In this document: one piece after another, positions 17,215 through 33,737 of the stretch | Numbering within the stretch: the first letter of the stretch is position 1 | Layout: each line of letters starts with the position of its first letter | NCBI GenBank assembly: GCA_013141015.1 | Contig: JABFRT010000058.1 | Coordinates: forward strand, 1-33,737 | Source of the DNA: Hyphomicrobium sp. | GTDB lineage: Bacteria > Pseudomonadota > Alphaproteobacteria > Rhizobiales > Hyphomicrobiaceae | Length of the DNA: 33,737 bases | Direction: 5' to 3' | Position numbers and translations under genes: made by a program | The notes under the pieces: generated by a model | Database searches by the model: none | Told to the model about the DNA's origin: nothing | Seen by the model: the letters and a program-made list of their open reading frames with translations, nothing else

Positions 17215-18276
17215 CTACTTAGCACCTTCCGGCAGAAGTCCAAGGCGCGTGCCCGAATAGACTTTTGAGCGCAAAGGCTGCCACCACGCCTCGTTGTCCA
17301 GATACCATTGCACGGTTTTGGCGATGCCGGTCGCGAAGGTTTCGCCGCGCGTCCACCCCAGCTCTGTCTCGATCTTCGTCGGATCGATCGCATAGCGCCG
17401 GTCATGACCCGGGCGGTCAGCGACGTAGGTGATCAAGCTGCGGCGCGGTGATTTCCCTGGCCGCAACACATCGAGCGCGTCGCAGATCGTTTGAACAACC
17501 GCAATGTTTTCCATCGGCGCGCGGCCACCGACATTGTACGTCTCGCCGACGCGGCCACGCTCAACAGCCAGCGCCAGTGCCTTGACGTGATCATCAACGT
17601 ACAGCCAATCGCGCACCTGCCGCCCGTCGCCGTAAACCGGCAGCGGTTTGCCTTCGAGCGCATTCAAAATGACAAGCGGGATCAGCTTTTCCGGGAAATG
17701 GTTGGGCCCATAGTTATTCGAACAATTGGTGATCAGCGTCGGCAGGCCATAGGTCTCGCGCCACGCGCTGACAAGATGATCGGACGAGGCTTTGCTGGCC
17801 GAATACGGCGAGCGTGGATCGTAAGGTGTCGTCTCGAGGAAGTACCCATCGGGGGGAAGCGAGCCATACACTTCGTCGGTTGAGACATGCAAAAAGCGGA
17901 ACGCGGCTTTCGGGTTCTCGTCGAGGCTGTTCCAATAGCGCCGTGCTGCTTCCAAAAGCGTGAACGTGCCGAGGATGTTGGTCGAGATAAATTCAGCAGC
18001 GCCCGTAATCGACCGGTCAACATGGCTTTCAGCTGCCAGATGCATCACCGCTTCGGGTTTGGCCTCGCTGAACACTTTGTCCATGGCCGCGGCATCGCAA
18101 ATGTCGGCTTTGACAAAGCGATAGCCGCTATTGCCCGAGACGGAATCGAGTGACGCCAAATTGGCGGCATACGTCAGCTTGTCGACGTTTGTGACGTCCC
18201 AGCCTCGCGTGCCGACCAAATAGCGGACCAATGCGGATCCAATGAAACCTGCACCGCCCGTCACTATCACTCGCAT
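17215..18276 (-). CDS. rfbB: dTDP-glucose 4,6-dehydratase
   Basis: Converts dTDP-glucose to dTDP-4-keto-6-deoxyglucose with bound NAD+, the branch point to dTDP-rhamnose and other deoxysugars. 353 residues. The Rossmann motif TGGAGFIGS (6-14), the catalytic TDE (133-135, in STDEVYGSL) and YSASK (158-162) are all present, as is [13 protein letters not shown]. It is the last gene of the minus-strand polysaccharide unit, 49 bases after the polymerase gene. The partner genes rmlA, rmlC and rmlD are not in this window, so the final sugar cannot be assigned here. Confidence 0.95.
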
Positions 18277-18325
18277 CGTCCGCCCTCTTGCACTACGCGC
18301 CCCTTCTACCGATAGAGGGCAGCAT

Positions 18326-19657
18326 CTAAACTGATCTCTTGGATAATACGTGTCGCAGCCGTTCGGGAAGCCAGATTTTGGAAAATGCCGCCGATAGGCC
18401 TGCAGCTTGATCGGTCACCACACGGTTTCCCAGCATCAAGATGCAGAAAGACATCATAAACATGCTCTGGATCCATTCATGCCACAGGTTCCAGGTTGCC
18501 ATCGATTGAACGGCCGCCATTGCTAGGGTTGCAAATCCGAAAGATATTGCCGAGGGATGCAAGCGCCCCACGCCCGTCACAGACAACGCCGCTGCTGCTA
18601 TCAAGAGTGCCGCGCCAGCGGCTCCGAGTTCCAACCAGATCTGCAGAACCATATTGTGCGGGTGGTGTGACGGCCAGGTACGGTTTGAGGGCTTCAGCTT
18701 TTGCGTGTGCTCTATCGTCGTGTTGTTCGCGCCGATGCCGAGAACGGGTGCCTTCCAAACATTCTCCGAAACGTTCCCCCAAATCTTGAATCGTTCCTTC
18801 AATGTAAATTGAGCCCAAGCCGCGTTTTGCAGCTCCAGACGGCTATAGGCAATCTGCGCCAACGGCACCACGCTCAGAACCAACGCGACGATAGTCAAAA
18901 TCGCGGCAGACCGTGTTTTGGCACCTGCGCGCAACGAAATTGCGAACACAACTGCACTTAAGCCAACGGCGATTTTAGACGTCTCATGATCCGACGTAAA
19001 CGTGACGGCCAGCGACACAGCAATCAGAGCGAGGCACGCGGCAACACGCCAGCGCCGCGCCACGGCGGCAGACAATATCAGCAGCGATGGCCACGTGAGC
19101 AGGTTCAACCCTGCAACACTCCAATTGGCGAACGCACGATGGATCAGATTAACGTCTTGCCCCTTGACAACAATCATTGAATTTTTCGGCGGCCTGATAT
19201 CGGGAAATGTCGCCATCGCCCAGCGAAAAATACCGAAATTTGAATAGAGTTCGGCAAACAGCAACAGGCAGCCGCCAACAAGACCGATCACGAACCAGCC
19301 TGCGACAAGCATCGCGCCGTGCGGCGACAGCCGGTCAAGCCCCAAGCGCAATACGCAGCCCAGAATAATGACCATGCCGAGCAGCGCGCCGGACTTTAGC
19401 GCAGCATCAGGGGCATGCGCCCAAAGTGCACTCGATGCGGACAGGGTGGCGAAGGCCAGAAACAGGGCGACTGGAACAGACGGCGCCAAGAGATCTGCCC
19501 ACAACCTTGTCCAGTCCGAGCGCTGCCGGATCACGCATGCCAACATGATGACGGCCCAAATGGCGAGAACGATGGCCGCCGCCTTGCTGCCGACCACCAT
19601 TGCCCCTGCAGCAAAGCAACCGGTCATTGCTGCTATGCGGTCTTTCACCGTAACCAC
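18326..19657 (-). CDS. O-antigen ligase/polymerase family (Wzy_C) membrane protein
   Basis: 443 residues with about ten hydrophobic segments. The large central loop and the motif [19 protein letters not shown] at about 325-345 are the Wzy_C signature shared by WaaL O-antigen ligases, Wzy polymerases and related protein glycosyl ligases. It would act on lipid-linked glycan at the periplasmic face of the inner membrane. Ligase versus polymerase cannot be decided from sequence. It starts at GTG 19657 with GGGA upstream. It lies between the epimerase and RmlB genes on the same strand. Confidence 0.85.
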
Positions 19658-19708
19658 TGCAAGGTTCCCGCTTCAAAAATTCAACGTCCGGCTAGGCACA
19701 GCATTGCA

Positions 19709-20665
19709 TCACGACAACCCCGGGCTACTATCCGGCAGATACCATTCGGCGGTCGCGCGGAGGTCTTTGTCCATGCTGGCCGGTGGGGCCCAATTGAGCC
19801 GTTCCCGCGTTTCTCTATCATCTATTTCCAGTGATGACAGTAGACTGTCTACCATGACTTGGCGGCCCGTAACTGCCCCTGCAAATCGCAACACAGACGG
19901 CGGCAAAGGAAAAAGTCGCGCATTCTTGCCCAAAGATGCGGCAACACGCTGATAGAGCCCTGCGGAGGAAACGGTTTCGCCATCGCGCGCCAGAAAAGTC
20001 CTGCTGGAATGAGAAGGCTGCTCTACGCAGGTCGCGATCAAATCCGCCAACAATCTGACCGACAAGAGGTCGCGGCGATTGGCAATGCAGCTGACGGGCA
20101 ATGGAACGCCACGTGCCGCGAGGTTGTATAGCATCAGCATACTGCCTTTCACATGCGGCCCATAGAGCAGAGGCGGCCGGATAAGGGTCGCGCGCAGACC
20201 TGGAATTGCCAGGAGTGCACCTTCCGCTGCAAGCTTTGAGCGGCCGTAGGGATCGGCCGGTGCCGGCACCGAGGCCGCGTGAAATGGAACGTTGTCTGTC
20301 CGGTCGCCCACGGCCTTAATCGAGCTGACGAACAGAAACTGGCCAACGCCGCTTTGCATTGCGGTTTGACCGAGCTTCGCCGTTGCCCCGACGTTCACCG
20401 CGTCAATATATCCGGGCGTCAGACCCCGGGTGGCAGCACCCGACCAGTTGGCTGTATGAACCACCGCATCAGCACCGGTAAAAGCGGCTGCCAGGTCCGG
20501 TCCATGCTCCAGTGGCCCGGTATAGACAACATCATTGCAGTCCAATCCGGTTACGGATTTCTGGTCGCGCACGCACCCAACAACCTGATGCCCCCGGGCC
20601 GTCAACGCCGCCGTGACAGCGCGGCCGACAAATCCATTGGCCCCCGTAACGACAACCCGCAGCAC
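19709..20665 (-). CDS. NAD-dependent epimerase/reductase, sugar-nucleotide type
   Basis: Extended SDR of 318 residues: Rossmann motif VVVTGANGFVG near the N-terminus, SSIKAVGD (catalytic Ser region) and YGRSK (Tyr/Lys pair). It resembles WbpV/WreQ-type enzymes, which act on UDP-GlcNAc derivatives and usually stand next to an initiating sugar transferase, as here. A role as UDP-4-keto-6-deoxy-GlcNAc reductase (UDP-QuiNAc formation) or as a 4-epimerase is inference. GTG 20665 is preferred because GAGGG lies 9 nt upstream; the TTG at 20671 is only 3 nt from it. Confidence 0.82.
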   Translation of the reverse strand: MLRVVVTGANGFVGRAVTAALTARGHQVVGCVRDQKSVTGLDCNDVVYTGPLEHGPDLAAAFTGADAVVHTANWSGAATRGLTPGYIDAVNVGATAKLGQTAMQSGVGQFLFVSSIKAVGDRTDNVPFHAASVPAPADPYGRSKLAAEGALLAIPGLRATLIRPPLLYGPHVKGSMLMLYNLAARGVPLPVSCIANRRDLLSVRLLADLIATCVEQPSHSSRTFLARDGETVSSAGLYQRVAASLGKNARLFPLPPSVLRFAGAVTGRQVMVDSLLSSLEIDDRETRERLNWAPPASMDKDLRATAEWYLPDSSPGLS

Positions 20666-20716
20666 GCCCAAATTCCCTCACCCAGCCTTATCGAAAGTCG
20701 AGGCATTTGCTGGACC

Positions 20717-21262
20717 TCAGACCCCAATCAGGCGATTGCCAACGATTGTCGCGCAAAGGATTCTGAAATCCAACCCGATAGACGTTCTGCCAGCGTAGTC
20801 TGCATCGATTTTCGCCAGCCGTTCATGATCCGACATATCGACGCCACGCACTTGAGCAAGTCCGGTGATCCCCGGCAGATGGTGCATCACGCCGCGCATG
20901 CGCCGGGCTTCGATCAACGGCGTTTGTGACGGCAGGCACGGGCGAGGTCCAACGAGGCTCATCTCGCCGCGCACGACATTATAAAGCTGGGGCAGTTCAT
21001 CGAGCTTCGTCGCACGAAGAAAGCGGCCGACGCGGGTAACGTCCGCCTTGGTCATTTGATGGGTCGGGACTTCAGCTGTGCCGGTTTCCATCGTCCGGAA
21101 TTTGTAGCAGCGGAACACCCGTTCACTCCGGCCGACCCGGGTCTGCGCAAAAATTACCGGTCCGCGCGACTCCAATTTTATCAGCAGCGCAATGACAGGT
21201 GCGATGAGCGCGAACACCAGCAGCCCCAACAGCCCAATCGACAGATCAACCGCGCGTTTCAT
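20717..21262 (-). CDS. Initiating undecaprenyl-phosphate sugar phosphotransferase
   Basis: 181 residues of the bacterial sugar transferase family (WbaP/WcaJ C-terminal catalytic type). One N-terminal hydrophobic segment (LSIGLLGLLVFALIAPVIALLI) is followed by the conserved GPVIFAQTRVG, KFRTM, LRATKLDELPQLYNVVRGEMSLVGPRP and PGITGLAQV. It transfers a sugar-1-phosphate from a nucleotide sugar to the lipid carrier, the first committed step. It is the short form without the extra N-terminal membrane domain. ATG 21262 (MKRAVDLSIG) has GGAG five bases upstream; ATG 21280 is an alternative. The start overlaps the end of the upstream glycosyltransferase gene, so the two are likely translationally coupled. 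Confidence 0.92.
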   Translation of the reverse strand: MKRAVDLSIGLLGLLVFALIAPVIALLIKLESRGPVIFAQTRVGRSERVFRCYKFRTMETGTAEVPTHQMTKADVTRVGRFLRATKLDELPQLYNVVRGEMSLVGPRPCLPSQTPLIEARRMRGVMHHLPGITGLAQVRGVDMSDHERLAKIDADYAGRTSIGLDFRILCATIVGNRLIGV

Positions 21263-22418
21263 GACCGCTCCGCTCGACATGATCTGAGCTCTGCGCCTGC
21301 ACGCCGGACAATTCGCTGTAGAACCGTTGCGACAGCTCCCATAGCTTGTCTTGGGTGTAGTTCGCAGCAACGGCGCTGCGCGCCGCAGCACCACGTTGAC
21401 TGAGATCTTTGGTGGCCGCTATCGCCAGCAATGCCGCAGCCAATGCTTGCGCATCATCTGGCGGCACACACCATCCGTCAGTGGCAACGGCAAATTCACG
21501 GCATCCGGGCACGTCGGTCGTTAGAACGGGGCGGCCACATGCGGCGGCCTCGATCAAGGCCTTCGGGATGCCTTCGCCACCGCGCGATGGCAAAACGGCG
21601 ATATGCTGGGTGGCCCAGAATCCATTGATATCCGCTATCCGCCCGAGCCACCGCACGCCCGGTTGGCTCGTGAATTGCCGCATGTCATCCGGTGTTAAGC
21701 TGCGCGGATTATCGGGATCGAGCGGGCCTGCAAGCGACAATTCAACATCGAGCCCTCGCGCACGGGCAAGTCCAACGGCTGCAACAGCAACGTCAACGCC
21801 TTTTGACCAGATCATACGGGCGACAAGCGCACACTTCAGCGGAGGGCTGAGCGGAAGCGGGGTCGCGTCAAGGACTTGCAGATCGACACCCGCGCCGCCA
21901 GCTACGGCCGTTCGTCCCTCCGCCATTGCCGCGTTGAGCCGGCAGCTGAACAAATCCGCCTTGTTTTCTGCAAACCATCGGGTCGATGAGCTATCGGCAA
22001 TTGAGCTACAGAAGAGGCCAGACACCAAGCGTATCAGCTTCGCGCTCAACGATTGAGAAACCGCCGAATAGCCGCGCCCCGTGATCGTGAACACGCGTTT
22101 TCGCACGCCCGAACGCAGCCCTGCAACAGTGCCAACCAGAATTCCAAACAAGCCGAAGCCATGCAAAATCGTATCTGGCGAGCGCTGCAAATTTTTAGCG
22201 ACGATGCCGGCCGCGCCGAACAACCCGAGTGGCAAAACCCCACCGCGCCGCACCGGCAAATCGATGACGTCAAAACCTTCGTCGATCAGCCGTTGGCGTG
22301 CCGCGCCCATGTTGGCCGCGATCGCAACTTCCCAGCCTTGCTGGCGGGCTCGTTGAGCCAGATGCAGAAAATGCGAAACGAAGAACCAGTCGACGTTCGC
22401 CAGGTAGACAATGCGCAT
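21246..22418 (-). CDS. Glycosyltransferase family 4 protein
   Basis: 390 residues from ATG 22418 (MRIVYLANVDWFF). The GT-B fold is visible: an N-terminal acceptor half with GFGLFGILVGTVAG and TGRGYSA, and a C-terminal donor half with ALVARMIWSKGVDVAVAA and the GT4 signature PSRGGEGIPKALIEAAACGRPVL. It transfers a sugar from a nucleotide donor to the growing lipid-linked glycan in the cytoplasm. The open frame extends upstream to 22688, but that part has no family features and overlaps the divergent promoter region. It is the first gene of the minus-strand unit ending at RmlB. Confidence 0.9.
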   Translation of the reverse strand: MRIVYLANVDWFFVSHFLHLAQRARQQGWEVAIAANMGAARQRLIDEGFDVIDLPVRRGGVLPLGLFGAAGIVAKNLQRSPDTILHGFGLFGILVGTVAGLRSGVRKRVFTITGRGYSAVSQSLSAKLIRLVSGLFCSSIADSSSTRWFAENKADLFSCRLNAAMAEGRTAVAGGAGVDLQVLDATPLPLSPPLKCALVARMIWSKGVDVAVAAVGLARARGLDVELSLAGPLDPDNPRSLTPDDMRQFTSQPGVRWLGRIADINGFWATQHIAVLPSRGGEGIPKALIEAAACGRPVLTTDVPGCREFAVATDGWCVPPDDAQALAAALLAIAATKDLSQRGAAARSAVAANYTQDKLWELSQRFYSELSGVQAQSSDHVERSGHETRG

Positions 22419-22673
22419 GCGGGGGCCCCGATCGACGAAGCGCAGATGTACCGGCCGGGCGGCGGCAATGCAAATGCCCGATGGCGAAAGGCCCAGATAT
22501 CTGGACTGCCGGCCCATTGCGCACCTTGAAAGCCAAACACCCAGCACCTCGGCGTAATGCAGTCGCACCAACATCAAACTTGCAGCTTGCCCCCCGGCTG
22601 ACCTAGGGTCCGGCCAGGCTACCGGGGCCGGACCGCTTACGCACGGCTGATCAAGTTCCTGCGAACAGGATGA

Positions 22674-23597
22674 ATGCGAGCTTTGCAACTTTCGACGGGT
22701 ACAAACGAGTTGAGCGTGGGTGTGATCATTCCGGCCTACAACAGGCCGGATGATGTGGGTAAAGCCGTAGCCTCAGTTCTAGCTCAGACGCGGCTGCCCG
22801 AACGCATCGTCCTGATCGACGATGGCTCAGATGAACCCCTGACACCGGACCCCATCTGGCGTTCGGCCACAACCATCGACATTATAAGGCTGCCCACAAA
22901 CAGCGGTGCCGCCGCTGCGCGTCAGGCCGGTCTTGATGTTCTCGACACGACCCACGTGGCGTTCCTCGATGCCGACGACGCATGGTTGCCTGCCAAACTT
23001 GCCCGTCAGGTTGACCATATCAACAGCCTCGCCAACCCCGGACAAACAGCGCTTGCCTGCGGCTGGATATCAACAGCCGGCGACGGCACAACGCTGGGGC
23101 GGCGCATGCCGCGTCCGAGCCGTTCCCTTGCCGATTTTTGCAGCGGGTGCTGGTATTGCCCAGGCTCAACCGTTTTAATGCCGCGCGCGCCACTGGTAGC
23201 CATTGGCGGCTATGACCCGCGTTTGCGCCGCCTCGAAGACCTGGACTTGTTCCTGCGTTTAGCACTTTCCGGCTGTGTCATCGCCGTTACACCGGTCTTT
23301 GGTGCCAGTATTCGCCAGGGCCAGAACGCGCGGCGGCGCGATGTCGATCCTGCCGCCGCCCTGCTCAGGACGAAATTCCTGTCAGCCGGGTCTCGTGATG
23401 TCATCGACCCTGACATGCAGCGCAAGCTTGACAGCTGGCTGTGCGTCGAAGAAGCAGCCGCCGCTTACAACGAGGCGCACTACACCCGCGCGATTAACCG
23501 TATGCTGTGCTCATTGCGGCGCGTGCCGCGGCTCTCTATCCAACTTAGCGATTGGTGGCATCAACCGGCAAATGTTGCGGTTACATATGATCCTTAA
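22674..23597 (+). CDS. Glycosyltransferase family 2 protein
   Basis: 307 residues with a GT-A fold. VGVIIPAYNRPDDV (15-28) is the nucleotide-binding start, VLIDDGS at 46-52, and the metal-binding DADD at 99-102 in AFLDADDAW. The C-terminal part includes GGYDPRLRRLEDLDLFLRLA, the usual acceptor-side ED motif. There are no membrane segments, so it acts in the cytoplasm, probably adding one sugar of the repeat unit. ATG 22674 has AGGA close upstream. It is divergent from the GT4 gene and leads a short plus-strand unit. Confidence 0.92.
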   Translation: MRALQLSTGTNELSVGVIIPAYNRPDDVGKAVASVLAQTRLPERIVLIDDGSDEPLTPDPIWRSATTIDIIRLPTNSGAAAARQAGLDVLDTTHVAFLDADDAWLPAKLARQVDHINSLANPGQTALACGWISTAGDGTTLGRRMPRPSRSLADFCSGCWYCPGSTVLMPRAPLVAIGGYDPRLRRLEDLDLFLRLALSGCVIAVTPVFGASIRQGQNARRRDVDPAAALLRTKFLSAGSRDVIDPDMQRKLDSWLCVEEAAAAYNEAHYTRAINRMLCSLRRVPRLSIQLSDWWHQPANVAVTYDP

Positions 23598-23708
23598 GCA
23601 TAGTGCGCGGCCTCTTGTATCCTTAATTGCTGGCACCGTCCGTTGACCAAGTTACAATTGCACTGTCGTTCCATTGAATTCGCAAGAGCATTGTACACCG
23701 CGTAGCCA

Positions 23709-23737
23709 TTGACCGTGTCTACCAGGAGCGCGATAAA
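23709..23737 (+). promoter_or_regulatory. Candidate promoter for zinc-ribbon methyltransferase gene
   Basis: TTGACC (23709-23714, one mismatch from TTGACA), a 17-nt spacer and GATAAA (23732-23737, two mismatches from TATAAT). The start site would be near 23744, giving a leader of about 38 bases. Spacing is ideal and the region is A/T-richer than its surroundings, but the hexamers are only moderate. Confidence 0.4.
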
Positions 23738-23781
23738 CAAACATGCAGCCATCAGATCAGCGTGAGTTTTAGGTATTTCCT

Positions 23782-24549
23782 ATGGGTGAAATTACGACCA
23801 AGGCGCCTTTCATGGCCGCCCCGCGATGCAGGTTCTGCAACAGCGAATACACGACTTACTTTCGCGATATTCCGCTTCGGCGCATAAAGCAGAATGCGCC
23901 TCTATATTTCTGCATGGTCTGCGAATGCATGTGGCATCCGCAAGATTGCGTCGAACCCGACGATCAGCTTAAACGTGATGCCGAATGGCACATCTCCGTT
24001 GAAGACCGCAACACGCCTTGGATCAACAACTTCCTGAACGCCGCTGTGGCGCGAAAGCCGATTAAATCATTCATCGAAATTGGTTGCGGCACCAGCACAA
24101 TGCGATCCATCGGCCGTGAGCGCGGTATGGATGTGATTGGTTACGACACGAACCCCGTGGCTGCTCCAATTGCCCTTGCCCGGCACAACATCGAAATCCA
24201 GCCGTGCTTATGGGGGCACGACACCTTGTCGAAGAAATACGACTTGGTCGTATGCATTTCGACACTCGAGCACGTTCCAGACCCCAACGGCCTGATCCAC
24301 GAGATTGCGACATACTGCAAACGGCATGGCTCAGCTGCTTTTGTTTCGGTGCCCTTCACGTGTGAACGCAGCCAATGGCATTTCCTGCTTGAGCCTGTCC
24401 CCAAAGACATCAGCAATCCGTATTATTTGTCGGACGTTCACATCAATCACTTTTCACGCCACGGCTTTGAGCAGATGTGCTGGCGGCACGGCGCAACCAA
24501 GGTTGACTTTTTTCCGCGCGGATGGATCGGGTACTGGCTGGAATTCTAA
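23782..24549 (+). CDS. Class I SAM-dependent methyltransferase with N-terminal zinc ribbon
   Basis: 255 residues. Two CxxC pairs (C16/C19 and C44/C47) form a probable zinc ribbon before the methyltransferase core: SAM motif FIEIGCGTSTMRSI, the acidic residue in VIGYDTNP, and LVVCISTLEHVPDP. The layout recalls sugar C- and O-methyltransferases of polysaccharide clusters. The C-terminus (HINHFSRHGFEQMCW) is typical of the broad SAM-methyltransferase group around glycan loci. An alternative start is ATG 23812 (MAAPRCRFC), with AAGGCG before it. The acceptor is unknown. Confidence 0.85.
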   Translation: MGEITTKAPFMAAPRCRFCNSEYTTYFRDIPLRRIKQNAPLYFCMVCECMWHPQDCVEPDDQLKRDAEWHISVEDRNTPWINNFLNAAVARKPIKSFIEIGCGTSTMRSIGRERGMDVIGYDTNPVAAPIALARHNIEIQPCLWGHDTLSKKYDLVVCISTLEHVPDPNGLIHEIATYCKRHGSAAFVSVPFTCERSQWHFLLEPVPKDISNPYYLSDVHINHFSRHGFEQMCWRHGATKVDFFPRGWIGYWLEF

Positions 24550-24662
24550 TACCGCGCATCGTCCGTTTCCCGTTTCGAAATTGCGGCCGATACTAAAAGA
24601 CGGAAGGCATTGCTGAGCTCAGATCGCCGGCAGCCTCCAAGAGCTGATGTGATCGCGATCCA

Positions 24663-24694
24663 TAAAAAATAAAAGCGCTGCATTTGAATGCAGC
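24663..24694 (-). terminator. Rho-independent terminator of the multidomain gene
   Basis: On the minus strand, GCTGCATT (24694-24687) pairs with AATGCAGC (24684-24677), followed by GCTTTTATTTTTT. It begins seven bases after the stop codon of the large glycosyl/methyltransferase gene. A strong stem plus T tract makes this a clear intrinsic terminator. Confidence 0.88.
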
Positions 24695-24700
24695 TTGAGA

Positions 24701-27700
24701 TCAGCTGGCTGGGTTCGTTTCATCATTTTCTGCACGCCGCGTGACGCGAAACACAGCTGTCCGGAATTCGTTGCCGACATGGGCCAGCCAGCCGCAATTG
24801 CTGATCTCCCTGTCGACATAACCCTTGATGTCCGGCCAGTCGGGTGAATCATAGTCGTCGAATATGATGAAGCCGCCGAGGCGGACCATCTTGCCGTAAT
24901 TCTCGAAGTCCGCCTTCACACCTGACAAGCTGTGGTCGCCGTCGATAATCAATACATCGATCGGGCGGCGGCCAGCCTCTGTGATAGCCTCGTCATCGGT
25001 ACTGAAGCGCTTGATCAATGTCAGCTCATCATCGGCAATCGCAACGCGCGACAAGTTACGGAGTAATGTCTTTTCATTGACCAGCTGACCGGTTTGAATG
25101 TCGGGCTTGCCTTGTGAGTAATAGCCATCCAGCGGATCCAGCAGTGTCAAATGAACATGCTCGAACCGCTGCTTCAAGACGTCGTACATAATGGCAGCGC
25201 CAACACCGAAAAGCGTGCCGATTTCGACGATGTTGACTTCGCGCCGGTTGACGCCCATCGCAACCACCGTGCGCAGCAGGATCGTCTCTATGGACGTCGC
25301 CAACCGGCCGGTCATCATGGATTCCAGAGTACAGGCTTTGTGCGCCATATAGTGCAAGGTTTTGGAATCCAGCGGCACAGACAACGCACGCCCCCAAACA
25401 GTGGTAAGCGTCTCCGCATCTGCCTTGCGCAACATTCTGTTGAACGTCTGAAAGCCCAATGCGTTGTTGGCCGGTATTGTCCGCGCTACAGCGCGCGCCG
25501 CCTCCTGGGCTTGCTGCACTTGTACAGCCACATCGCTGGACCGCTCGATCGCTAATTTGGACAGCTGCTCTAGAGACTTGAGTTGCTTATCGACGTCAGT
25601 CCGGAATGCGATGAACGCAGCCATTTCGCCGGCCAACCGGCCAATCTGCGGATCAAAGGCCGTAACCTTGCCTTCAAGCGCCTTTGCCACCTGCTCTACC
25701 GAACTCAGCTGCCGGCCAACATCACTTTTCACTGCTGCGATTTCGCTGGCTAACCGGGAAATTTGCGGATCGATCATTGCAACTCTGCTTTCAACCGTTT
25801 CCGACCGCGCAGCGAGCATTGACAGGCGGGAGTTCGGCCCGCTTGTCTGTTCAATCAACGCCGCCAGCTTCGCGCCGGCGCTCTTTTCATGTGCTGTAAA
25901 TTCTGTCTGCTGAGCCGCCAAATCCCGTGTTAGCTTGGCGTTCGCCTGCTCAGCGATCAGCAGCTGGCGCCGCAAAGTCCCAATTTCAGATTGCAGAAGT
26001 GTCACGAGCTTCCCGCCCGTCCGCCGCGTATTGAAAAACGCAAAAGCAATTGCAATCGCGAACAGCGGCAGGGCTGTCATGAGGGTCATGAGGTTGGCAT
26101 CAAGGTCTAAGGCCGGGCGGTAACCTGCTAACTGCGGAAGCAAATATACCGCCACCAGCGATGCGAGTGCCGCCAGTGCCAGCAAACTCAGCGGCCAAAA
26201 GCGCCGTGCCAATCGCAAAAGCCGCATCGCAAAGCGCCCCAGAGAGAACAATATGGGACTGGTATTCTTGGCCCACAACGCTATCCGAGTGTAAAGCGGT
26301 AACCCGCTATCGCGGTGGACGTAAGGATGCCTCGCTGATGCTTTGGTGGCCGGAACGTGGGTCGCCGCAGTGGAGACGGCTTGAAGTTTCACGGCAGGTG
26401 GCGCCTTTGACTGAAGATCCGACGTCCGGGATGACGTTGTCGATGTGCTAGGAGACTTTGATTTATCTCCGGCTGTCACTGCCGGGGCGGAAGCCGCCAA
26501 CTCAGGCTTCCTGACTTTGGCCAGGGACGCAAACGCGCGCTCAACCTCTGCCAATCCCGGATCAGTCCTAAAGGCTAACAAATTGCCCCAGGCTTCGTCT
26601 GTAATCAAGCGATCAGGGTAGCGAATGACCCTGCACCAGTCATGCGGAATGCCATAGCGGATGATCGGATGCCATTCACTGAGGTAAACGGCATATCCCT
26701 TGTCTTGCAAATATTCACAGACCTCGCGATACGTGTGACCAAGTGGAACCGTCTTGGCGTCCTCAAATTCGGCTTCGATCACGTCCGGCTTGATCTGGTC
26801 CCAAGGGATGCCCTTCAGAACCGAGAAGTCATACCCTTCGACATCGATTTTCAAGAAATCGATTTTGCTCAAGTTGCGATCACGAACGATCTCGGCGACC
26901 GTTGTGACGTCCACACGCGCCGTTTGCTTATGTGTATCCCGGAACGAATGCAGGCCGCTAATTCCTGTGCTTTCCGAGGACGTGAAGAATGCCACCCCCA
27001 GAGCCGGCTTGTCACTCACCGCGCGTTGATCGATCGAAACCGTGCGGCTGCCGCCGAAACGCGCGACCAACTTCGCCCGGTTGCTTGGGTCTGGCTCAAA
27101 ACAATGGATGGTCCAGCCGAGCTTATCGAAATAGCCAGCCGACGTGCCGAAGTGTGCGCCGACATCGACCATAACGTGATTGCGGCCAACGCGGCCGGAA
27201 AGCATCGCCGCGACCACTTCGGTCTCATCGACACTCGCACCTGCGGCGCGGCTAATACCCGTCGATTGGCCCGACTTCCCAGCGCTCACGGCTTCGCCTT
27301 TCAATGCTGCTTCTAGGTCCATGCGCGGAAAAATTTCAAGCGCCCCACCAGCGGTCGCATTGATAATCTCCCGGCCCTCCTCTGCATAGGCGGTCTTCGC
27401 CAGCTGGTACATCTGTTCCATCATATCGACGTCCGCAGCCTGCCAAGTCTTGCCGCGGAAATATCGTGAATCGAAGTGGTTAGGATCTTCATTCGTGGTT
27501 AAAATGATATCGCCTTCTTTGACGTCACTGCTCTGTTTGTAGAAATGATCGAAGCCGATCATGATGACGCGCTTATATCCCAGGCCGAACGCCAGATGCA
27601 GATTGTAGAAGGTTACCGTATGACGCCATGACATGTTCTTGAACATGTCCTTACTGAACGCCGCGTGCCCGACCGCATCTACGAAGTAGGTGTCGTCATC

Positions 27701-30103
27701 TTCGTTCAGGCAATACGACATCCAATAGGGCAGGATTTTTGGAACGCCCTGAAGCCTGTTGATGTTTTGGCTGCTTTGCTCGGCAACGAGATAGTTTACG
27801 ACGGTATAATACTTGGCGCACTCTAGTAGTTTCGGCTCGAGAAACGCGTTATTCGATATGATAACGTCGTGCCCCTTCAGCAGGTCCAGATTGGAATTCT
27901 TGAGGCTCGGGCCATTGCCGACAATGACGCAAACGTCACTCGTCCGCTTCGCAATCTTGTCTCGCAAAAACGCATGCGATTTCTCGATTTGCTTCCGCTT
28001 CCATGCCGCATCGAATGCCCAGCGCTTCGGCCCGACCGTATAGCAAACGTGGCCCGGCTCTTGTGCCGTATCGAGGGCCGTCTGCTTGCAGGGCGTCGAT
28101 GCTTTCAAACCAAGGCGGCCGAGTTCGCGGAGGGTGTCACCATAGCCTTTTTCCGAAGGCTTTGATTTGAGCATCTCATAAGTCAAGGCGCCGGTATTGT
28201 AGGCCTTCATCAACTCAACGTAGTGCCGCTCAATCTCTGCCTCGTTCTTGACTGTGGTATTGGCGGCATGCGCCAGTACGCCGTCGAAACCTTCCGACAG
28301 AAATTCTGCATAGCGCCGCAACCAGTTGTGGTTCGCGTAACCGAAGTGGCTGACCAACATGTCGCAAACCTCAGCGTAGCTTTTGCCGCGCTGGCCGTAG
28401 GTTTTGTTGTTGGTGTGGTAGCGGGCGAGGGCCAGATTCTCGTCGAGATATGCGAACTTTATGCCCGCTTTCACGCAGCGGATCCAATACTCATAGTCCA
28501 TACAAAAGTGCAGGCCGCCGTTAATCTCGCCCACCGTCTCGATCACACTGCGGCGCATGAACAGAGCCGGCTGAAGAATGCCGTCCTCTTGCTGCAACCG
28601 CCACGGCAGCGTCTCAGGCTTCTTATTCAGATAGACGTCACGCAGGTGGCCACCGCGCTCGTCGATATAGATGCCTTTTCCGTAGACGATATCCGGACGG
28701 TCCGGCTGATTGAAGCGGTCGATGACGCGTTGGAAAACGCCAGGATCGGCGAAGACGTCATCGGAATTCAGCCACGCGATGACGTCGCCCTGCGCGGCGC
28801 GAAAACCCTTGTTGATTGCATCGGACTGGCCGTTATCCGGCTCGGTGAATAGCGTGACGTGCGCAAATTTGCGGGCGATATCGCGGCTGCCGTCTGTTGA
28901 GCCGGGATCATAAACAAAATGCTCGATCGGCTTGAGCGTCTGATCGGCGATGGAGCTGAGGCACTCGTCTAGGAACTCAGCCTGATTGAAGCTCGGGCTA
29001 ATCACCGAAACTGTCCGAACGTCGGCCGCATGCACGTTGCCGGCCAGGCCGTTCGACACTCTTACCACCTGATTCAAAAGCTCGTCCCCCTGCGCCTTTC
29101 CAAATCTCTGGCGCGCTATTTCTGTCAACTGTTGCTGGAGCTTGCCATCGAGCTCCAGTGACGCAAAGAACGTTATTGCACGCCGCCAATCCGCATCATC
29201 AAAATGGTCTGGATAGGCAGCGCTTTTCTGCACGCTATCGAGCAGGAAATGTATGAGCAGGCCGTTGATCACCGTGTTCTCCGGGATATTCCGGATGTCC
29301 TCAGGCTTGAAGGCACCAACGTCTTTGAGGCGCGACAACATGCGCACGAACGGGTGGCTGAAATATAGGGCGTTGCGCTTGTTGGTGTCGGCCATAAAGT
29401 CGGCCTCAGACCCCTTATTACCGAGTGCGGCGCGTTTTTCTTCTTGGGTCTGCGTGCGGTGACATACCGTCGGCTTACCGATAAGGCATACAGGCTTATC
29501 GTGGAAAGCTTCGAGCATCATGCCAAGCTGCGGGTACATCGACCCGAAATAAGGGGCAGGATTGACCTGCAAAAATGCCTGGCGCCGGAAAATATTGACG
29601 GAGATGAAGCCGATTACACTGATGAATCCGAAGTCGCGGCAAAAGGCCCGAAGCCCGGCATAATCCTTATCGACCGGCTCCAGCCGCATCCAATTCGGCG
29701 ACAATAGTTTTGACAGATCGGTATTGCGGCGCGTGCGATTGAGCACCAGCATGTCATAGCGATTTTGACGCAGCCTCGCGACGAGCTCGTCCATCGCCTG
29801 ATCGTGTTCGAGATAGTCGTCATCACCGAAAATCCAAAGATACTCGCCGGAAGCGCCCTCGGCCGCAGCGATCAAGCTGCGCTCAAGTCCGAGATTGTTG
29901 CTGCGGCGGCGAAACGTGATGAAGGCGTGCCGGGCAGCAAAATCTTCAACGGGCGCCAGCGAATTTCCGGGCGAGGCGTCGTCGGTTACAAGTATTTCGA
30001 TATCGCGATCATATTTGCCTGAAATCTGCCGGGCGAACGTCTCGAGCGCATGCAGCAATGAGTCCGGGCGGTCATAAGCCGGAATGACGATACTCAATAA
30101 CAT
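24701..30103 (-). CDS. Giant fusion: two GT2, MptE-like, FkbM methyltransferase, TM/coiled coil, methyltransferase
   Basis: 1800 residues from ATG 30103, fixed by GAGGAG six bases upstream. Domains: GT2-A about 1-225 (IVIPAYDRP 4-12, GDDD 93-96); GT2-B about 362-600 (VSVISPSFNQ 365-374, NSDD 446-449, DYEYW near 536-540); an MptE/DUF115-like Rossmann domain about 720-920 (VIVGNGPSLKN 726-736); FkbM methyltransferase about 975-1180 (VDVGAHFGTS, FLKIDVEGYD from 1083); a Ser/Thr/Ala-rich linker to about 1280; two membrane segments (about 1302-1323 and 1338-1357); a coiled coil about 1364-1541 with a duplicated unit; and a C-terminal Methyltransf_24-like domain (VEIGTLFGVG from 1626, LIIDGDHS 1718-1725). 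It probably extends and methylates a glycan at the membrane. It is the last gene of a three-gene minus unit. Each domain is confidently placed; the combination is unusual, and the substrates are unknown. Confidence 0.93.
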   Translation of the reverse strand: MLLSIVIPAYDRPDSLLHALETFARQISGKYDRDIEILVTDDASPGNSLAPVEDFAARHAFITFRRRSNNLGLERSLIAAAEGASGEYLWIFGDDDYLEHDQAMDELVARLRQNRYDMLVLNRTRRNTDLSKLLSPNWMRLEPVDKDYAGLRAFCRDFGFISVIGFISVNIFRRQAFLQVNPAPYFGSMYPQLGMMLEAFHDKPVCLIGKPTVCHRTQTQEEKRAALGNKGSEADFMADTNKRNALYFSHPFVRMLSRLKDVGAFKPEDIRNIPENTVINGLLIHFLLDSVQKSAAYPDHFDDADWRRAITFFASLELDGKLQQQLTEIARQRFGKAQGDELLNQVVRVSNGLAGNVHAADVRTVSVISPSFNQAEFLDECLSSIADQTLKPIEHFVYDPGSTDGSRDIARKFAHVTLFTEPDNGQSDAINKGFRAAQGDVIAWLNSDDVFADPGVFQRVIDRFNQPDRPDIVYGKGIYIDERGGHLRDVYLNKKPETLPWRLQQEDGILQPALFMRRSVIETVGEINGGLHFCMDYEYWIRCVKAGIKFAYLDENLALARYHTNNKTYGQRGKSYAEVCDMLVSHFGYANHNWLRRYAEFLSEGFDGVLAHAANTTVKNEAEIERHYVELMKAYNTGALTYEMLKSKPSEKGYGDTLRELGRLGLKASTPCKQTALDTAQEPGHVCYTVGPKRWAFDAAWKRKQIEKSHAFLRDKIAKRTSDVCVIVGNGPSLKNSNLDLLKGHDVIISNNAFLEPKLLECAKYYTVVNYLVAEQSSQNINRLQGVPKILPYWMSYCLNEDDDTYFVDAVGHAAFSKDMFKNMSWRHTVTFYNLHLAFGLGYKRVIMIGFDHFYKQSSDVKEGDIILTTNEDPNHFDSRYFRGKTWQAADVDMMEQMYQLAKTAYAEEGREIINATAGGALEIFPRMDLEAALKGEAVSAGKSGQSTGISRAAGASVDETEVVAAMLSGRVGRNHVMVDVGAHFGTSAGYFDKLGWTIHCFEPDPSNRAKLVARFGGSRTVSIDQRAVSDKPALGVAFFTSSESTGISGLHSFRDTHKQTARVDVTTVAEIVRDRNLSKIDFLKIDVEGYDFSVLKGIPWDQIKPDVIEAEFEDAKTVPLGHTYREVCEYLQDKGYAVYLSEWHPIIRYGIPHDWCRVIRYPDRLITDEAWGNLLAFRTDPGLAEVERAFASLAKVRKPELAASAPAVTAGDKSKSPSTSTTSSRTSDLQSKAPPAVKLQAVSTAATHVPATKASARHPYVHRDSGLPLYTRIALWAKNTSPILFSLGRFAMRLLRLARRFWPLSLLALAALASLVAVYLLPQLAGYRPALDLDANLMTLMTALPLFAIAIAFAFFNTRRTGGKLVTLLQSEIGTLRRQLLIAEQANAKLTRDLAAQQTEFTAHEKSAGAKLAALIEQTSGPNSRLSMLAARSETVESRVAMIDPQISRLASEIAAVKSDVGRQLSSVEQVAKALEGKVTAFDPQIGRLAGEMAAFIAFRTDVDKQLKSLEQLSKLAIERSSDVAVQVQQAQEAARAVARTIPANNALGFQTFNRMLRKADAETLTTVWGRALSVPLDSKTLHYMAHKACTLESMMTGRLATSIETILLRTVVAMGVNRREVNIVEIGTLFGVGAAIMYDVLKQRFEHVHLTLLDPLDGYYSQGKPDIQTGQLVNEKTLLRNLSRVAIADDELTLIKRFSTDDEAITEAGRRPIDVLIIDGDHSLSGVKADFENYGKMVRLGGFIIFDDYDSPDWPDIKGYVDREISNCGWLAHVGNEFRTAVFRVTRRAENDETNPAS

Positions 30104-30109
30104 GTCGCA

Positions 30110-30115
30110 CTCCTC
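30110..30115 (-). promoter_or_regulatory. Shine-Dalgarno deciding the start of the giant gene
   Basis: GAGGAG on the minus strand, six bases before ATG 30103. It selects this ATG (MLLSIVIPAY, the natural start of a GT2 fold) over the in-frame upstream start at 30160. Confidence 0.8.
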
Positions 30116-30196
30116 GCGCCGGCGGCACTCAATGGTCTCGCTGGACAAACGCCCCTGCACATCCGGGCCTGCCGCTTACCCCCAACACCAGCCAGG

Positions 30197-31063
30197 TCAG
30201 ACCGCTTCTTTTGGACAGCCTGCCTTGTCGAGGCCAGCATTGAATTCTTCGAGAAATCCTTGACGTACCAACAAGAGATCGGTCCAGATATATCCTTTGG
30301 CCGGACGCCAATCCGTCATGAATTTAGCAAGCTGGCCGGAACGTCTCGGCAAGCCGGCAATCTCACCACGAATTGCGGTGGAACCATTCGATAGCGGCAA
30401 CTGATGATAACCTGCACGGAACCCCAGTTTATCGGGCTCAACGCCAACAGGTATGGCATTGTATTCGGTATCGAAAATTGCATAGCCGTGGCTGGCGGCA
30501 AATTCGACAACGTCTTCCTCGCCCTGGAATTCGACAAACATCATGTCAATCAGCCCGCGATCAATCAGCTTGCTTGCACCGCGCAGAACCGCTCCCTCAC
30601 CGCCCTGAACGTCGATTTTCAGGAACCTAACGCGTTCGTCAACGCATGAGTCGAGCGAGCAGACATCAACGTTAAAAACCTTCTCTCCTGGCTTTCCCGC
30701 GGCTTCAGCGGCGGGAATGAGCATTCCGGTGGATGAGTACCCGGGCCGTTTGCCCCAACCGCGCTCGTGACCTTGCACAACGCTCGGCACGAAGAAGACT
30801 CCGGGGCCGTCAAAGTCTGCAACAGCCTTTTCGACCAGAGATATTCCAGAGATGCCCTCGGTGATCTCGCGGAAATAGGGCAGATTGCCTTGCCAAGGCT
30901 CGAAGCAAATGGTCCGGCCTGATGGGCTCGCTTGCTGCAGCTGCCGGGCCACCGTCCCCATTGCCGCGCCAACATCGAGACTAAGACAGGGTGGGAACTG
31001 GCTAACCAAACTGAAGACGAATTCCGGACTGGCGTGTGCAAGCCGACTCGAGACCGTGATCAT
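30197..31063 (-). CDS. FkbM family methyltransferase
   Basis: About 288 residues from ATG 31063. SAM motif LSLDVGAAMGTVA (about 27-39), the acidic residue in CFEPWQGN, and the family signature RFLKIDVQGGEGAVLRGA (about 146-163) are present. FkbM enzymes O-methylate sugars or polyketides; in a polysaccharide locus a sugar hydroxyl is the likely acceptor. The start is uncertain: the frame is open to 31141 and no good Shine-Dalgarno precedes ATG 31063. It lies 93 bases before the giant gene, which carries a second FkbM domain with a different sequence. Confidence 0.88.
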   Translation of the reverse strand: MITVSSRLAHASPEFVFSLVSQFPPCLSLDVGAAMGTVARQLQQASPSGRTICFEPWQGNLPYFREITEGISGISLVEKAVADFDGPGVFFVPSVVQGHERGWGKRPGYSSTGMLIPAAEAAGKPGEKVFNVDVCSLDSCVDERVRFLKIDVQGGEGAVLRGASKLIDRGLIDMMFVEFQGEEDVVEFAASHGYAIFDTEYNAIPVGVEPDKLGFRAGYHQLPLSNGSTAIRGEIAGLPRRSGQLAKFMTDWRPAKGYIWTDLLLVRQGFLEEFNAGLDKAGCPKEAV

Positions 31064-31180
31064 TGGGAAGGATTCCAGTTGAAATACGCTATTAGGGGAA
31101 CGCCGCATCCGACTGCAAAGCCGATGCTTTACACTGACCAATCCATTAAAGTCGGTCTTACAACGCAGCCAACGACACCG

Positions 31181-31888
31181 TCAAGTTGCCAGGGTTTTAC
31201 GCGCGGCGATTTTCAAGGATACGCTTTGCGCATGCTGACGCAGCTCATCCAAAGCCGGTGATATCGTCTTCCAGCCATGCATGATGTTGTCGGGGTTCGA
31301 GGCGATGTCCGGCGTAAACACCAATCCGCCCGCGAACACATCTCCGACGGGCGTGACGTCGGGCCGCTTTGATATCGCATTCCGGTACATTTCAAAGCGG
31401 TCACGCCAGAACGCTGTTGGGTTGCCGGAAATATACATGTCTACCGCGTGATACATGACGCCGCCAGGCTTCAACACGCGAACACAGTCGTCGAAGAAGG
31501 CCTGAAACTCTGTGTCCGGCACGTGCTCGACAACCGAAATCGAAAATAGAATATCAAAGGTCGCATCTGCGATCTGACCGTTGCTCTTGCCGATTTCCGT
31601 TCTGATATTCGTCACACCCGGCAAAACGACCTCGCTCTTGGGCCCATTGTCGGCGCCTTGAAACGGCTCGATATTGTAGCAGGAATTGCTCCGGCTGAAT
31701 TGCGGCAATACGCGAGACGCCCCGCCGCCTATCTCGCCGATCACCTTGCCGGTGGTTCCTGACAACTCTTGCAACACAAACAAGTCCTGCATCGTCTTCA
31801 ACTGGAACGACAATTTATGCGGATTGTCTTTGAGGAGGCCCGCGTCCAGCGCCTTCCAGATTTCCGGCTTGCGAATAAAGTCGAACAT
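31181..31888 (-). CDS. Class I SAM-dependent methyltransferase
   Basis: 235 residues from ATG 31888 (MFDFIRKPEIW), with GGGGG just upstream; the open frame reaches 31942 but adds no family sequence. SAM motif VIGEIGGGASRVL, the acidic region NIEPFQG, and ILFSISVVEHVPDTEF followed by VRVLKPGGVMYHAVD mark the Methyltransf_11-type core. It probably methylates a sugar or other polysaccharide substituent. It is the first gene of the minus unit that continues with the FkbM and giant genes, and is divergent from gmd across 225 bases. Confidence 0.86.
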   Translation of the reverse strand: MFDFIRKPEIWKALDAGLLKDNPHKLSFQLKTMQDLFVLQELSGTTGKVIGEIGGGASRVLPQFSRSNSCYNIEPFQGADNGPKSEVVLPGVTNIRTEIGKSNGQIADATFDILFSISVVEHVPDTEFQAFFDDCVRVLKPGGVMYHAVDMYISGNPTAFWRDRFEMYRNAISKRPDVTPVGDVFAGGLVFTPDIASNPDNIMHGWKTISPALDELRQHAQSVSLKIAARKTLAT

Positions 31889-32113
31889 CGTGCCCCCAAC
31901 CTTATGTATTTGACCCGCAGTAGGTGCTTCTTCCGGCCGCAACGCCGCGTCTATCTGCTTGCCACGCCGCTATCCACGTCTTTCGCACCCATATCGGCGC
32001 GGATTGCACACCCGCCGCAGGGCCGTAACCTTGCGAGGCTTGCCGTTCTTGGCTATGGCCTATGGCTTGCCTGAATTGAATGGCATCTCGCTGATTTCTC
32101 AACCGGTATCGAC

Positions 32114-33187
32114 ATGACAAGCCCAAAAACTGCACTGATCACTGGCGTCACCGGACAGGACGGTGCTTACCTTGCCCGCTTGCTCCTTGGCAAGGGCTAC
32201 ATCGTCCACGGCGTCAAGCGCCGGTCTTCGTCATTCAATACCGAGCGAATTGACGCGCTTTACGAAGACCCGCACGAGCATAAAACGTCGTTCTTCTTGC
32301 ACTATGGAGACCTGACCGACTCGACCAATCTCATTCGCTTGGTCCAAGAAGCGCAGCCCGACGAAATCTACAACCTCGCGGCCCAAAGCCACGTGCAGGT
32401 GAGTTTTGAAACGCCGGAATATACAGCCAACTCGGATGCGATTGGCACCCTGCGTCTGCTGGAAGCCATTCGCATTCTGAAGATGGGCGACAAGGTTCGT
32501 TTCTATCAGGCATCGACTTCCGAACTTTACGGGAAGGTTCAGGAAATCCCGCAGAAGGAAACGACACCTTTCTACCCGCGCTCGCCCTATGCAGCGGCAA
32601 AACTCTACGCTTACTGGATCACAGTCAATTACCGTGAAGCCTACGGCATGCATGCGTCGAACGGTATTTTGTTCAATCATGAAAGCCCGGTCCGCGGCGA
32701 AACATTCGTGACGCGGAAAATCACGCGCGCCGTTGTGCGCATCGAAGCCGGCCTGCAGAAGACGCTGTTTCTCGGCAACCTCGACGCCAAGCGCGACTGG
32801 GGCCATGCCAAAGACTACGTCGAAGGCATGTGGATGATGATGCAACAGGAACAAGCTGACGACTACGTACTGGCAACAGGGGAAACCCACTCGGTTCGCG
32901 AGTTTGTCGAACTGTCGTTTGCTGAAATCGGCCGGTCCATTTCGTGGAAGGGCAAGGGCGTCGATGAAGTCGGTTACGACGCGCAGTCAGGCGCCGAGTT
33001 GGTCCGCATCGATCCCCGCTATTTCCGGCCGACCGAGGTCGATTTGCTGCTCGGCGACCCAACCAAGGCGCGTGAAAAATTGGGCTGGACTCACAGCACG
33101 CCGTTCAAGCAACTGGTCAAGGAAATGATCGAGGCTGACAAAAAGCTGCTTAAGCGTGAGGCTTGGCGCAACTCGCTGACCGAGTAG
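32114..33187 (+). CDS. gmd: GDP-mannose 4,6-dehydratase
   Basis: Converts GDP-mannose to GDP-4-keto-6-deoxymannose with NADP(H), the entry to GDP-L-fucose, GDP-rhamnose and related sugars. 357 residues. The dinucleotide motif [13 protein letters not shown] is near the N-terminus, followed by YNLAAQSHV, the catalytic [18 protein letters not shown] (Tyr/Lys pair), and the family-specific [16 protein letters not shown] and [21 protein letters not shown]. Full length. It is followed 43 bases later by fcl, so the pair forms the usual GDP-fucose operon. Confidence 0.97.
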
Positions 33188-33230: not shown

Positions 33231-33737
33231 ATGAGCTTTTCGCTGGCCAACAAGCGCGTCTTCGTCGCCGGGCACCGAGGCATGGTCGGCGCAGCAATCG
33301 TTCGCCGGCTTGCCAGCGAGAATTGTGAAATCCTCACCATTGGCCGCACCGGCGTCGATCTTAGAACGGTAAGCGTCCGCACGGTTTTGAGCGGGAACGG
33401 CCGGAGGCCGTCATTCTGGCTGCGGCCAAAGTTGGCGGCATCCTGGCCAACGCCACCTATCCTGCGGAATTCCTCTACGACAACTTGGCCATCGAGACCA
33501 ACGTCGTGCATTCAGCCTATGCGACCGGGTGCGCCAAGCTGCTGTTCCTCGGCTCCTCGTGCATCTATCCGAAGTTTGCGCCTCAACCCATCCCCGAAGA
33601 CGCCCTGTTGACCGGGCCGCTTGAGCCAACCAACGAATGGTATGCGATTGCAAAAATCGCCGGCTTGAAGCTGTGCGAAGCCTACCGCCGCCAATACGGC
33701 GTCGACTTCATCGCAGCCATGCCGACCAATCTCTACG
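33231..33737 (+). pseudogene. fcl: GDP-L-fucose synthase, frameshifted and cut by window edge
   Basis: Reduces and epimerises GDP-4-keto-6-deoxymannose to GDP-L-fucose. The start (MSFSLANKRVFVAGHRGMVG, ending near VDLRT) is in frame from ATG 33231. From about 33386 the family sequence continues in another frame: [18 protein letters not shown], then [38 protein letters not shown] and MPTNLY up to the edge. The shift lies between about 33366 and 33386. Against the expected spacing of these motifs roughly four bases are missing, so this is not simply one base lost from the TTTT run at 33385-33388. All later catalytic motifs look intact in the second frame. This may be a recent mutation or a sequence error; the 3' end lies outside the window. 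Confidence 0.85.

Follow-up and report, generated by a model that had tools for sequence, protein, structure and literature searches.

A candidate single-chain glycan polymerase and terminator from Hyphomicrobium sp., with a membrane hairpin, a coiled coil and mosaic relatives

The window analysed here is a stretch of 33,737 nucleotides from Hyphomicrobium sp. (assembly GCA_013141015.1, contig JABFRT010000058.1, positions 1 to 33,737). One of its genes encodes a protein of 1800 residues (the megaprotein), preceded by a Shine-Dalgarno-like motif (Table 1). A preliminary description, made from the sequence alone, had proposed a single uninterrupted frame that joins two GT2 glycosyltransferases (GT), an MptE/DUF115-like domain, an FkbM methyltransferase, two membrane segments, a long coiled coil and a C-terminal methyltransferase. 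These parts are borne out, and the strand, which had not been named, is the minus strand. Together with its relatives, the megaprotein is consistent with a glycan polymerase and a chain terminator held in one polypeptide.

Table 1. Positions of the megaprotein gene, its modules and other genes in the window; the last row refers to other loci
Feature	Position	Strand	Basis or remark
Megaprotein gene, 1800 residues	24701..30103	-	ATG at 30103, stop 24703-24701, no internal stops
Shine-Dalgarno-like GAGGAG	30110..30115	-	upstream of ATG 30103
GT2 module 1, residues 1-330	29114..30103	-	Pfam; 51% identical to a 336-residue frame in genome G049
GT2 module 2, residues 364-605	28289..29014	-	Pfam
MptE/DUF115-like, GT42-like module, residues 690-940	27284..28036	-	Pfam below threshold; profile and fold
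FkbM methyltransferase, rare subtype, residues 950-1205	26489..27256	-	Pfam, TIGR01444
Low-confidence linker, residues 1206-1299	26207..26488	-	model pLDDT mostly about 25-55
Two-helix membrane hairpin, loop of about 11 residues, positive flanks, residues 1300-1357	26033..26206	-	hydropathy, charge
Coiled-coil spacer, about 190 residues, 1358-1547	25463..26032	-	heptad test; long helices in low-confidence model
Distal Methyltransf_24 O-methyltransferase-like module, residues 1548-1790	24734..25462	-	Pfam, profile, fold
Intrinsic-terminator-like hairpin with T-rich tail	24677..24694	-	directly past the stop
Separate FkbM-family methyltransferase	30197..31141	-	
Class I methyltransferase	31181..31942	-	
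GDP-mannose 4,6-dehydratase (gmd)	32114..33187	+	2 kb upstream of the megagene
fcl-like gene, 5' part	33231..33737	+	cut by contig end
Glycan genes including epimerases	17215..24549		
Wzy_C-type protein	18326-19657		
Bac_transf	20717-21394		
GT4	21246-22688		
GT2	22674-23597		
Methyltransferase	23782-24549		
CTP_transf_3 and D-2-hydroxyacid dehydrogenase pair	L082 11066-12726; L083 5353-7136; L043 2073-3742		

Pfam scores above the curated cut-offs support the two GT2 domains, the FkbM domain and the C-terminal methyltransferase. Glycos_transf_2 (PF00535) matches two stretches, the best at residues 366-523, with 174.3 bits for the whole protein (cut-off 23.3). Glyco_tranf_2_2 also aligns with the first GT2 region at residues 5-129, slightly under its own cut-off (25.0 against 27.3 bits). 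The FkbM domain at residues 980-1137 reaches 81.4 bits with PF05050 (cut-off 22.7) and 76.7 bits with TIGR01444 (cut-off 37.7), and Methyltransf_24 at residues 1626-1751 reaches 53.8 bits (cut-off 26.3). The MptE-like match at residues 713-752 stays under its cut-off (24.9 against 34.6 bits). Kinase families are absent from the Pfam matches of the protein. The terminator announced at the gene end is present as a terminator-like stem followed by a T-rich tail; such sites number 4 across the scanned region against a shuffle mean of 6.9, so they are not commoner than in shuffled sequence.

A frame of this size could be an assembly chimera of separate genes, the more so as the genome is a draft of 69 contigs and the exact order over the full length recurs in none of the 17 relatives described below. 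Two of these relatives answer the point. Locus L024, from a Hyphomicrobiales metagenome-assembled genome, aligns collinearly with residues 2-1212 (58% identity), and locus L040, which lies on the complete chromosome of Mesorhizobium sp. L-8-3, aligns with residues 941-1788 (43% identity). Because the two overlap through FkbM and jointly cover residues 2-1788, the single frame is upheld, and the probability of a chimera, which the preliminary description had named as a possible refutation, is practically negligible.

The third module is real despite its weak Pfam match, by profile and fold evidence, and is most like the GT42 sialyltransferases. Structures were predicted for residues 601-1800 and, separately, for the MptE-like domain. 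The profile of this domain matches the GT42 sialyltransferases CstII and CstI (best expectation value, E, 1.5e-9, for CstII). Its model, with a predicted local distance difference test score (pLDDT) of 84, has CstII as the top Foldseek fold (E 5.7e-4, TM-score 0.46, 18% identity), followed by the pterin kinase HPPK of M. jannaschii and human sialyltransferases. At the place aligned with His188 of CstII, the catalytic histidine, none of six sequences carries a histidine (R, R, K, K, K, A). The module is therefore termed GT42-like and not a GT42 member.

The distal module resembles sugar O-methyltransferases. With the model of residues 601-1800, Foldseek returns MeT1 first and then the sugar O-methyltransferases MycE, MycF and SpnK. 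Foldseek does not specify the matched part of this model, and the assignment to the distal module comes from the distal-module profile, to which the chains of MycE, MycF and MeT1 are weak matches (E 0.017-0.053). MeT1 methylates the 1-OH of the precursor of the mycobacterial methylmannose polysaccharide and thereby blocks it (excerpt of PMC9883506). As this is the reducing end, MeT1 supports a sugar O-methyltransferase, and not the choice of the end.

Hydropathy peaks at residues 1304-1322 and 1338-1356 support the two membrane segments, which form a predicted hairpin. Across the relatives the hairpin loops span about 3-12 residues, lengths that depend on helix ends set from the hydropathy peaks. 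Among 12 usable rows (those of L057, L082 and L083 being left aside), a net positive charge is carried by the flank ahead of the hairpin in 11 and by the flank behind it in 10. According to the positive-inside rule, positively charged flanks are cytoplasmic. Both hairpin flanks are thus assigned to the cytoplasm, since they are mostly positive, and the charges around the hairpin place all the enzymes and the coiled coil probably on this side of the membrane. Enzymes that use S-adenosylmethionine or nucleotide sugars require a cytoplasmic location. A periplasmic coiled coil of the Wzz kind was also considered and is ruled out by the short loops and the mostly positive flanks.

Beyond the hairpin, the heptad periodicity of residues 1366-1540 lies above all 300 shuffles (z 5.5), in agreement with the long coiled coil described at first. 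The periodicity is significant in eight of the nine spacers tested: no shuffle in 300 reaches the value of the window protein, L025, L026, L027 or L038, none in 200 reaches that of L082 or L083, and 3 in 300 reach that of L041. Among the window protein, L025 and L040, identities are 62-64% in FkbM, 47-56% in Methyltransf_24 and 15-31% in the spacer (64%, 48-56% and 20-31%, respectively, when the window protein is compared with either of the other two). From the domain order, the candidate terminator sits at the end of the coiled coil that is far from the GT modules and the membrane.

The 17 relatives (L024, L025, L026, L027, L038, L040, L041, L056, L057, two in L058, L059, L060, L061, L062, L082 and L083) have frames of 778-2309 residues. 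One search gave 17 loci, of which 11 (L028-L037 and L039) match in the GT2 region alone; these were excluded from the family, as were a stand-alone FkbM frame (L063, 367 residues) and, in L058, a 429-residue frame that resembles FkbM weakly (E 1e-28). The relatives are mosaics, and their front ends include GT2, GT4-type and MptE-like modules, variously ordered. FkbM is found in 15 of the 18 proteins, window included, in most of them ahead of the hairpin, and is absent from L038, L082 and L083. The hairpin is likewise found in 15 of 18 and is absent from L024, L060 and L061, the second helix being placed by eye in four; hydropathy gives two peaks in 11 of 18, one in L040, L057, L082 and L083, and none in the three that lack the hairpin. 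A distal Methyltransf_24 is carried by the window protein, L025, L038, L040, L082 and L083, and a distal sulfotransferase by L027, L041 and L057, whose sulfotransferases are about 60% identical to one another. The remaining nine of the 17 relatives have no distal enzyme. More than 100 residues separate the hairpin from the enzyme or from the protein end in the window protein, L025, L026, L027, L038, L040, L041, L082 and L083; the proteins of L056, L058, L059 and L062 end 15-82 residues beyond it. The domain order had been called unusual. No relative repeats it exactly over the full length, and the architecture belongs to a shuffled family and is not one fixed order.

The family is rare. Of the genomes sampled, 4 of 385 in the class (E 1e-60) and 7 of 397 in the order (E 1e-50) have the FkbM subtype, and the Methyltransf_24 subtype is in 1 of 385 genomes of the class (E 1e-40), 2 of 388 of the phylum and 3 of 342 of the order (both E 1e-30). 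These surveys are samples with differing thresholds, from E 1e-30 to 1e-60, and the own genome is counted each time. Some match was present in 55 of 60 related genomes, mostly, among the matches listed, as single GT2 or FkbM stretches, and of these genomes only G049 provided a family member that was taken further. One genome holds two adjoining members without distal enzyme (L058, 4388-7864 and 9312-12782). Separate sulfotransferase genes lie near the megagene in L064 (15338-16081), L083 (11985-12794) and L026 (10892-12640), which gives the fused sulfotransferase tails free-standing equivalents.

The pair L082 and L083, from two species of one genus, is the most instructive. Their halves with hairpin, coiled coil and methyltransferase (602 and 659 residues) are 79% identical, and the N-terminal halves give no BLAST match at E 1e-8. 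The sole gap in the aligned C-terminal halves is a block of 57 residues within the coiled coil. Therefore, both the front end and the length of the coiled coil have changed on a chassis that was kept.

The neighbourhood of some relatives suggests possible export by an ATP-binding cassette (ABC) transporter. A pair of ABC2_membrane and ABC_tran genes lies less than 2 kb from the megagene in L038 (in L064), L040 (in L065), L025 (in L066) and L027, and at about 3.6 kb in L082. Within 5 kb, such a pair accompanies five of the eight relatives with a distal enzyme against none of the nine without (Fisher p 0.009, which becomes 0.007 when each genus counts once and 0.03 when the window is added as a member that lacks the pair). 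Chain ends are recognised in known systems by the Wzt_C domain. It is found next to L040 (above cut-off) and L025 (below cut-off).

The genome of the window has the same type of exporter on another contig, C45. At the edge of C45, a Wzm is 49% identical over 275 residues to the one beside L040 in Mesorhizobium, and a truncated Wzt retains its first 110 residues or so (59% identical over 111 residues). The continuation of Wzt that would join C45 to the window contig was not found in the window. The glycan of the window may use the exporter on C45. The same edge (C45 1-11200, L043) is a second glycan locus, which holds, besides Wzt and Wzm, a short-chain dehydrogenase, a 2-hydroxyacid dehydrogenase, a cytidine monophosphate (CMP)-sugar synthetase, an MptE-like protein that stands alone, and GT2, gluconolactonase-like, AlgX-like and MBOAT proteins.

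Genes for CTP_transf_3 (CMP-sugar synthetase) and a 2-hydroxyacid dehydrogenase lie directly upstream of the megagenes of L082 and L083, and such a pair also adjoins the exporter of the own genome. Homologues of the own pair are located near L038 (in L064) and in L061, L068 and L069 (best four matches per query). The recurrent pair possibly serves an unusual CMP-activated sugar acid. Since CMP-sugar synthetase genes adjoin both megagenes and the own exporter, a CMP-sugar donor is plausible for the third module.

Taken together, these features suggest a mechanism in which polymerase, ruler and terminator would work in one chain. The GT2, GT2 and GT42-like modules would extend the glycan on a lipid carrier, and FkbM would O-methylate a residue while the chain grows. 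The hairpin would anchor the GT and FkbM modules to the membrane on its inner face, and the coiled coil would reach into the cytoplasm with Methyltransf_24 at its far end. Only sufficiently long chains would reach this enzyme and be O-methylated at the growing end. The O-methyl cap would then halt growth and license the export of the surface polysaccharide by an ABC transporter. The capping and ruler idea of the preliminary description, which followed the logic of WbdD/WbdA, is thus favoured by independent evidence, short of proof: the coiled coil lies between the hairpin and the distal enzyme, the two ends of the protein are swapped among relatives, a block of 57 residues separates two sister coiled coils, and ABC genes lie near five of the eight relatives with a distal enzyme. 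The enzyme activities, the methylated end, the action of the ruler and the capping are inferred. The confidence given to this polymerase and terminator is somewhat above even.

Several observations weigh against it. The window contig carries no ABC exporter, and its Wzy_C-type protein and Bac_transf initiator are compatible with a Wzy-type pathway. The ABC pair is absent within 5 kb of L041, L057 and L083, three of the eight relatives with a distal enzyme; the nearest ABC2_membrane gene lies about 13 kb from L057 and about 19 kb from L083, and L041 has none nearby. With a limit of 10 kb the contrast weakens to five of eight against one of nine, L024 having a pair at about 7 kb; p is then 0.05, and 0.13 when the window is included. 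Wzt_C was not seen in the ATPases that adjoin L038, L027 and L082. In a Wzy-dependent system, the GTs would assemble the repeat unit on a lipid carrier, residues of every repeat would be O-methylated by both methyltransferases, and the coiled coil would be no more than a tether. The Wzy_C-type protein and the initiator that adjoin the gene, the several separate methyltransferases of the locus, the window contig without exporter and the stretch of L083 without an ABC pair all agree with such a decorating enzyme. On the other hand, the Wzy_C family also covers the O-antigen ligases used by ABC systems, pairs of the Wzm/Wzt kind lie within 5 kb of five of the eight relatives with a distal enzyme, and the own genome has the same exporter type. 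A decorating enzyme would also leave unexplained the place of the distal enzyme beyond a spacer of variable length. This explanation is regarded as unlikely.

Other adverse points concern the coiled coil itself. It is modelled as long helices with low confidence, the spacer of L040 has no significant heptad signal (210 of 300 shuffles reach it), and the spacer of L057, of about 67 residues with the hairpin end set by eye, is too short for the test. Coiled coils commonly oligomerise, and the spacer could be a scaffold that assembles a complex and presents the enzymes to each other, its length having no effect on that of the glycan. The short spacer of L057, the signal missing from L040 and the poor conservation of the spacer sequence fit a scaffold, as does the tail of about 235 residues that L026 has past the hairpin and that ends without an enzyme. 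However, the sole gap in the 79%-identical sister halves is precisely a block of coiled coil, and insertions or truncations in the coiled coil of WbdD change the modal chain length (excerpt of PMC5082667). A scaffold without effect on length is considered distinctly improbable.

The polymerase and terminator reading meets further difficulties. The best fold match, MeT1, modifies the reducing (1-OH) end and not the growing end proposed here. Kinship with WbdD is not apparent, with no WbdD-named chain among the 12 PDB sequences matched by the Methyltransf_24 profile (E up to 5) or among the 15 PDB matches of the whole protein (E up to 0.001). The relatives are few, partly related to one another and in some cases on short contigs (9.5 kb for L062), for which reason the absence of an exporter is weak evidence for some members. 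The Wzy-type genes, the three relatives without exporter, the weak model of the coiled coil and the lack of kinship with WbdD are what hold the confidence at its present level.

The window also holds other glycan genes (Table 1). Upstream of the megagene, the fcl-like gene, presumably a guanosine diphosphate (GDP)-fucose synthase, would complete a GDP-fucose pathway with gmd; its frame is interrupted near 33360, by a sequencing error or because the gene is broken. Among the best four matches per query, gmd homologues (71-80% identical) lie near L040, L025, L027 and L059, and fcl homologues near L040, L025, L059 and L041. An enzyme that glycosylates a protein such as flagellin, of the Maf/DUF115 kind with fused methyltransferases, was also weighed. 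The Pfam family of the MptE-like domain includes motility-associated Maf proteins, and FkbM enzymes occur in glycosylation islands, both of which would suit such an enzyme. Nevertheless, flagellar proteins are absent from the 20 window proteins scanned, and the exporter genes and gmd/fcl near the relatives, together with the membrane hairpin, point elsewhere, which leaves flagellin glycosylation with very little probability.

In the glycan part (24000-33000) the G+C content is 54-57%. It is 58-65% at positions 1001-9000 and 55-63% at positions 9001-24000, which weakly hints that DNA was acquired. The contig begins with a partial 16S ribosomal RNA gene (positions 1-684, minus strand). Among the plasmid-collection matches listed for it, the best (Phyllobacterium, Methylosinus, Ensifer) are about 91% identical, and the host is accordingly a probable alphaproteobacterium of Hyphomicrobiales type. 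Mobile origins were examined and discarded: plasmid matches extend over no more than 15% of the query, in 2 records with E of 1e-30 or below, phage matches are confined to the GT2 region (4 records), and the Methyltransf_24 alignment gave 16 pattern matches and no relatives against viral contigs.

The mosaic relatives suggest, tentatively and with less than even confidence, a plug-in family in which the chassis of hairpin and coiled coil accepts interchangeable polymerase front ends and terminators, of O-methyl or sulfate type. If so, evolution would alter polymer chemistry, cap and length independently, the members with sulfotransferase tails would cap their chains with sulfate, and L082 and L083 would be a natural experiment on ruler length. 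Sulfate as a chain terminator was not met in the literature searched, among the matches listed. In Aeromonas salmonicida, a separate sulfotransferase gene lies between those of Wzt and WbbB, and the O antigen is described as free of sulfate (excerpt of PMC4483657). Among the matches listed, no literature on these fusions was found, and the term FkbM did not occur in the literature matched. Length control by a coiled-coil ruler has been worked out mainly for enterobacterial O antigens. A rare family, mostly alphaproteobacterial where named, in which polymerases and terminators are swapped on one chassis would illustrate how domain exchange gives rise to new surface polysaccharides. Its natural length variants would allow tests of the ruler model and offer a possible template for glycans of defined length and end group.

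Among known systems, CstI, CstII and the MptE pterin kinases provide the best profile match and the best folds of the third module, which differs from CstII by the low identity and TM-score and by the missing catalytic histidine. MeT1, MycE, MycF and SpnK have the closest solved folds to the model of residues 601-1800; unlike the megaprotein they are stand-alone enzymes, and MeT1 methylates the 1-OH end of its oligomannoside. On the scale of whole systems, the terminator of WbbB from Klebsiella pneumoniae O12 is a Kdo (3-deoxy-D-manno-oct-2-ulosonic acid) transferase, whereas the window protein has an O-methyltransferase-like module and some relatives a sulfotransferase. WbbB is, as is proposed for the window protein, a polymerase and terminator in a single chain with a coiled-coil ruler (excerpt of PMC11231755). 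In the same excerpt, a coiled-coil protein is a characteristic marker of this strategy of O-antigen assembly in Klebsiella and Escherichia coli, and the terminator sits at the distal end of the coiled coil in all the cases that it reviews. In WbdD/WbdA of E. coli O9a and K. pneumoniae O3, the coiled coil runs, as it would here, from a polymerase site near the membrane to a distal terminator that adds methyl (excerpts of PMC3482155 and PMC5082667), but two proteins and an amphipathic membrane helix are used there instead of one chain and a hairpin. ORF6-O7 of K. pneumoniae O7, composed of a methyltransferase-kinase, a coiled coil and two GT2 domains, has a GT2 polymerase and a methyl-adding terminator in one chain, the coiled coil between them and an ABC pathway (excerpt of PMC11231755), all of which the proposed mechanism would share. 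The window protein differs in its C-terminal candidate terminator, which reverses the order, in its hairpin, in the additional FkbM and GT42-like modules and in the absence of a kinase family. The best reading is that it works like WbdD, WbbB and ORF6-O7 without belonging to the WbdD family by sequence. Its new features are the order reversed with respect to ORF6-O7, the membrane hairpin, the GT42-like module, the FkbM decorator and the exchangeable distal enzymes.

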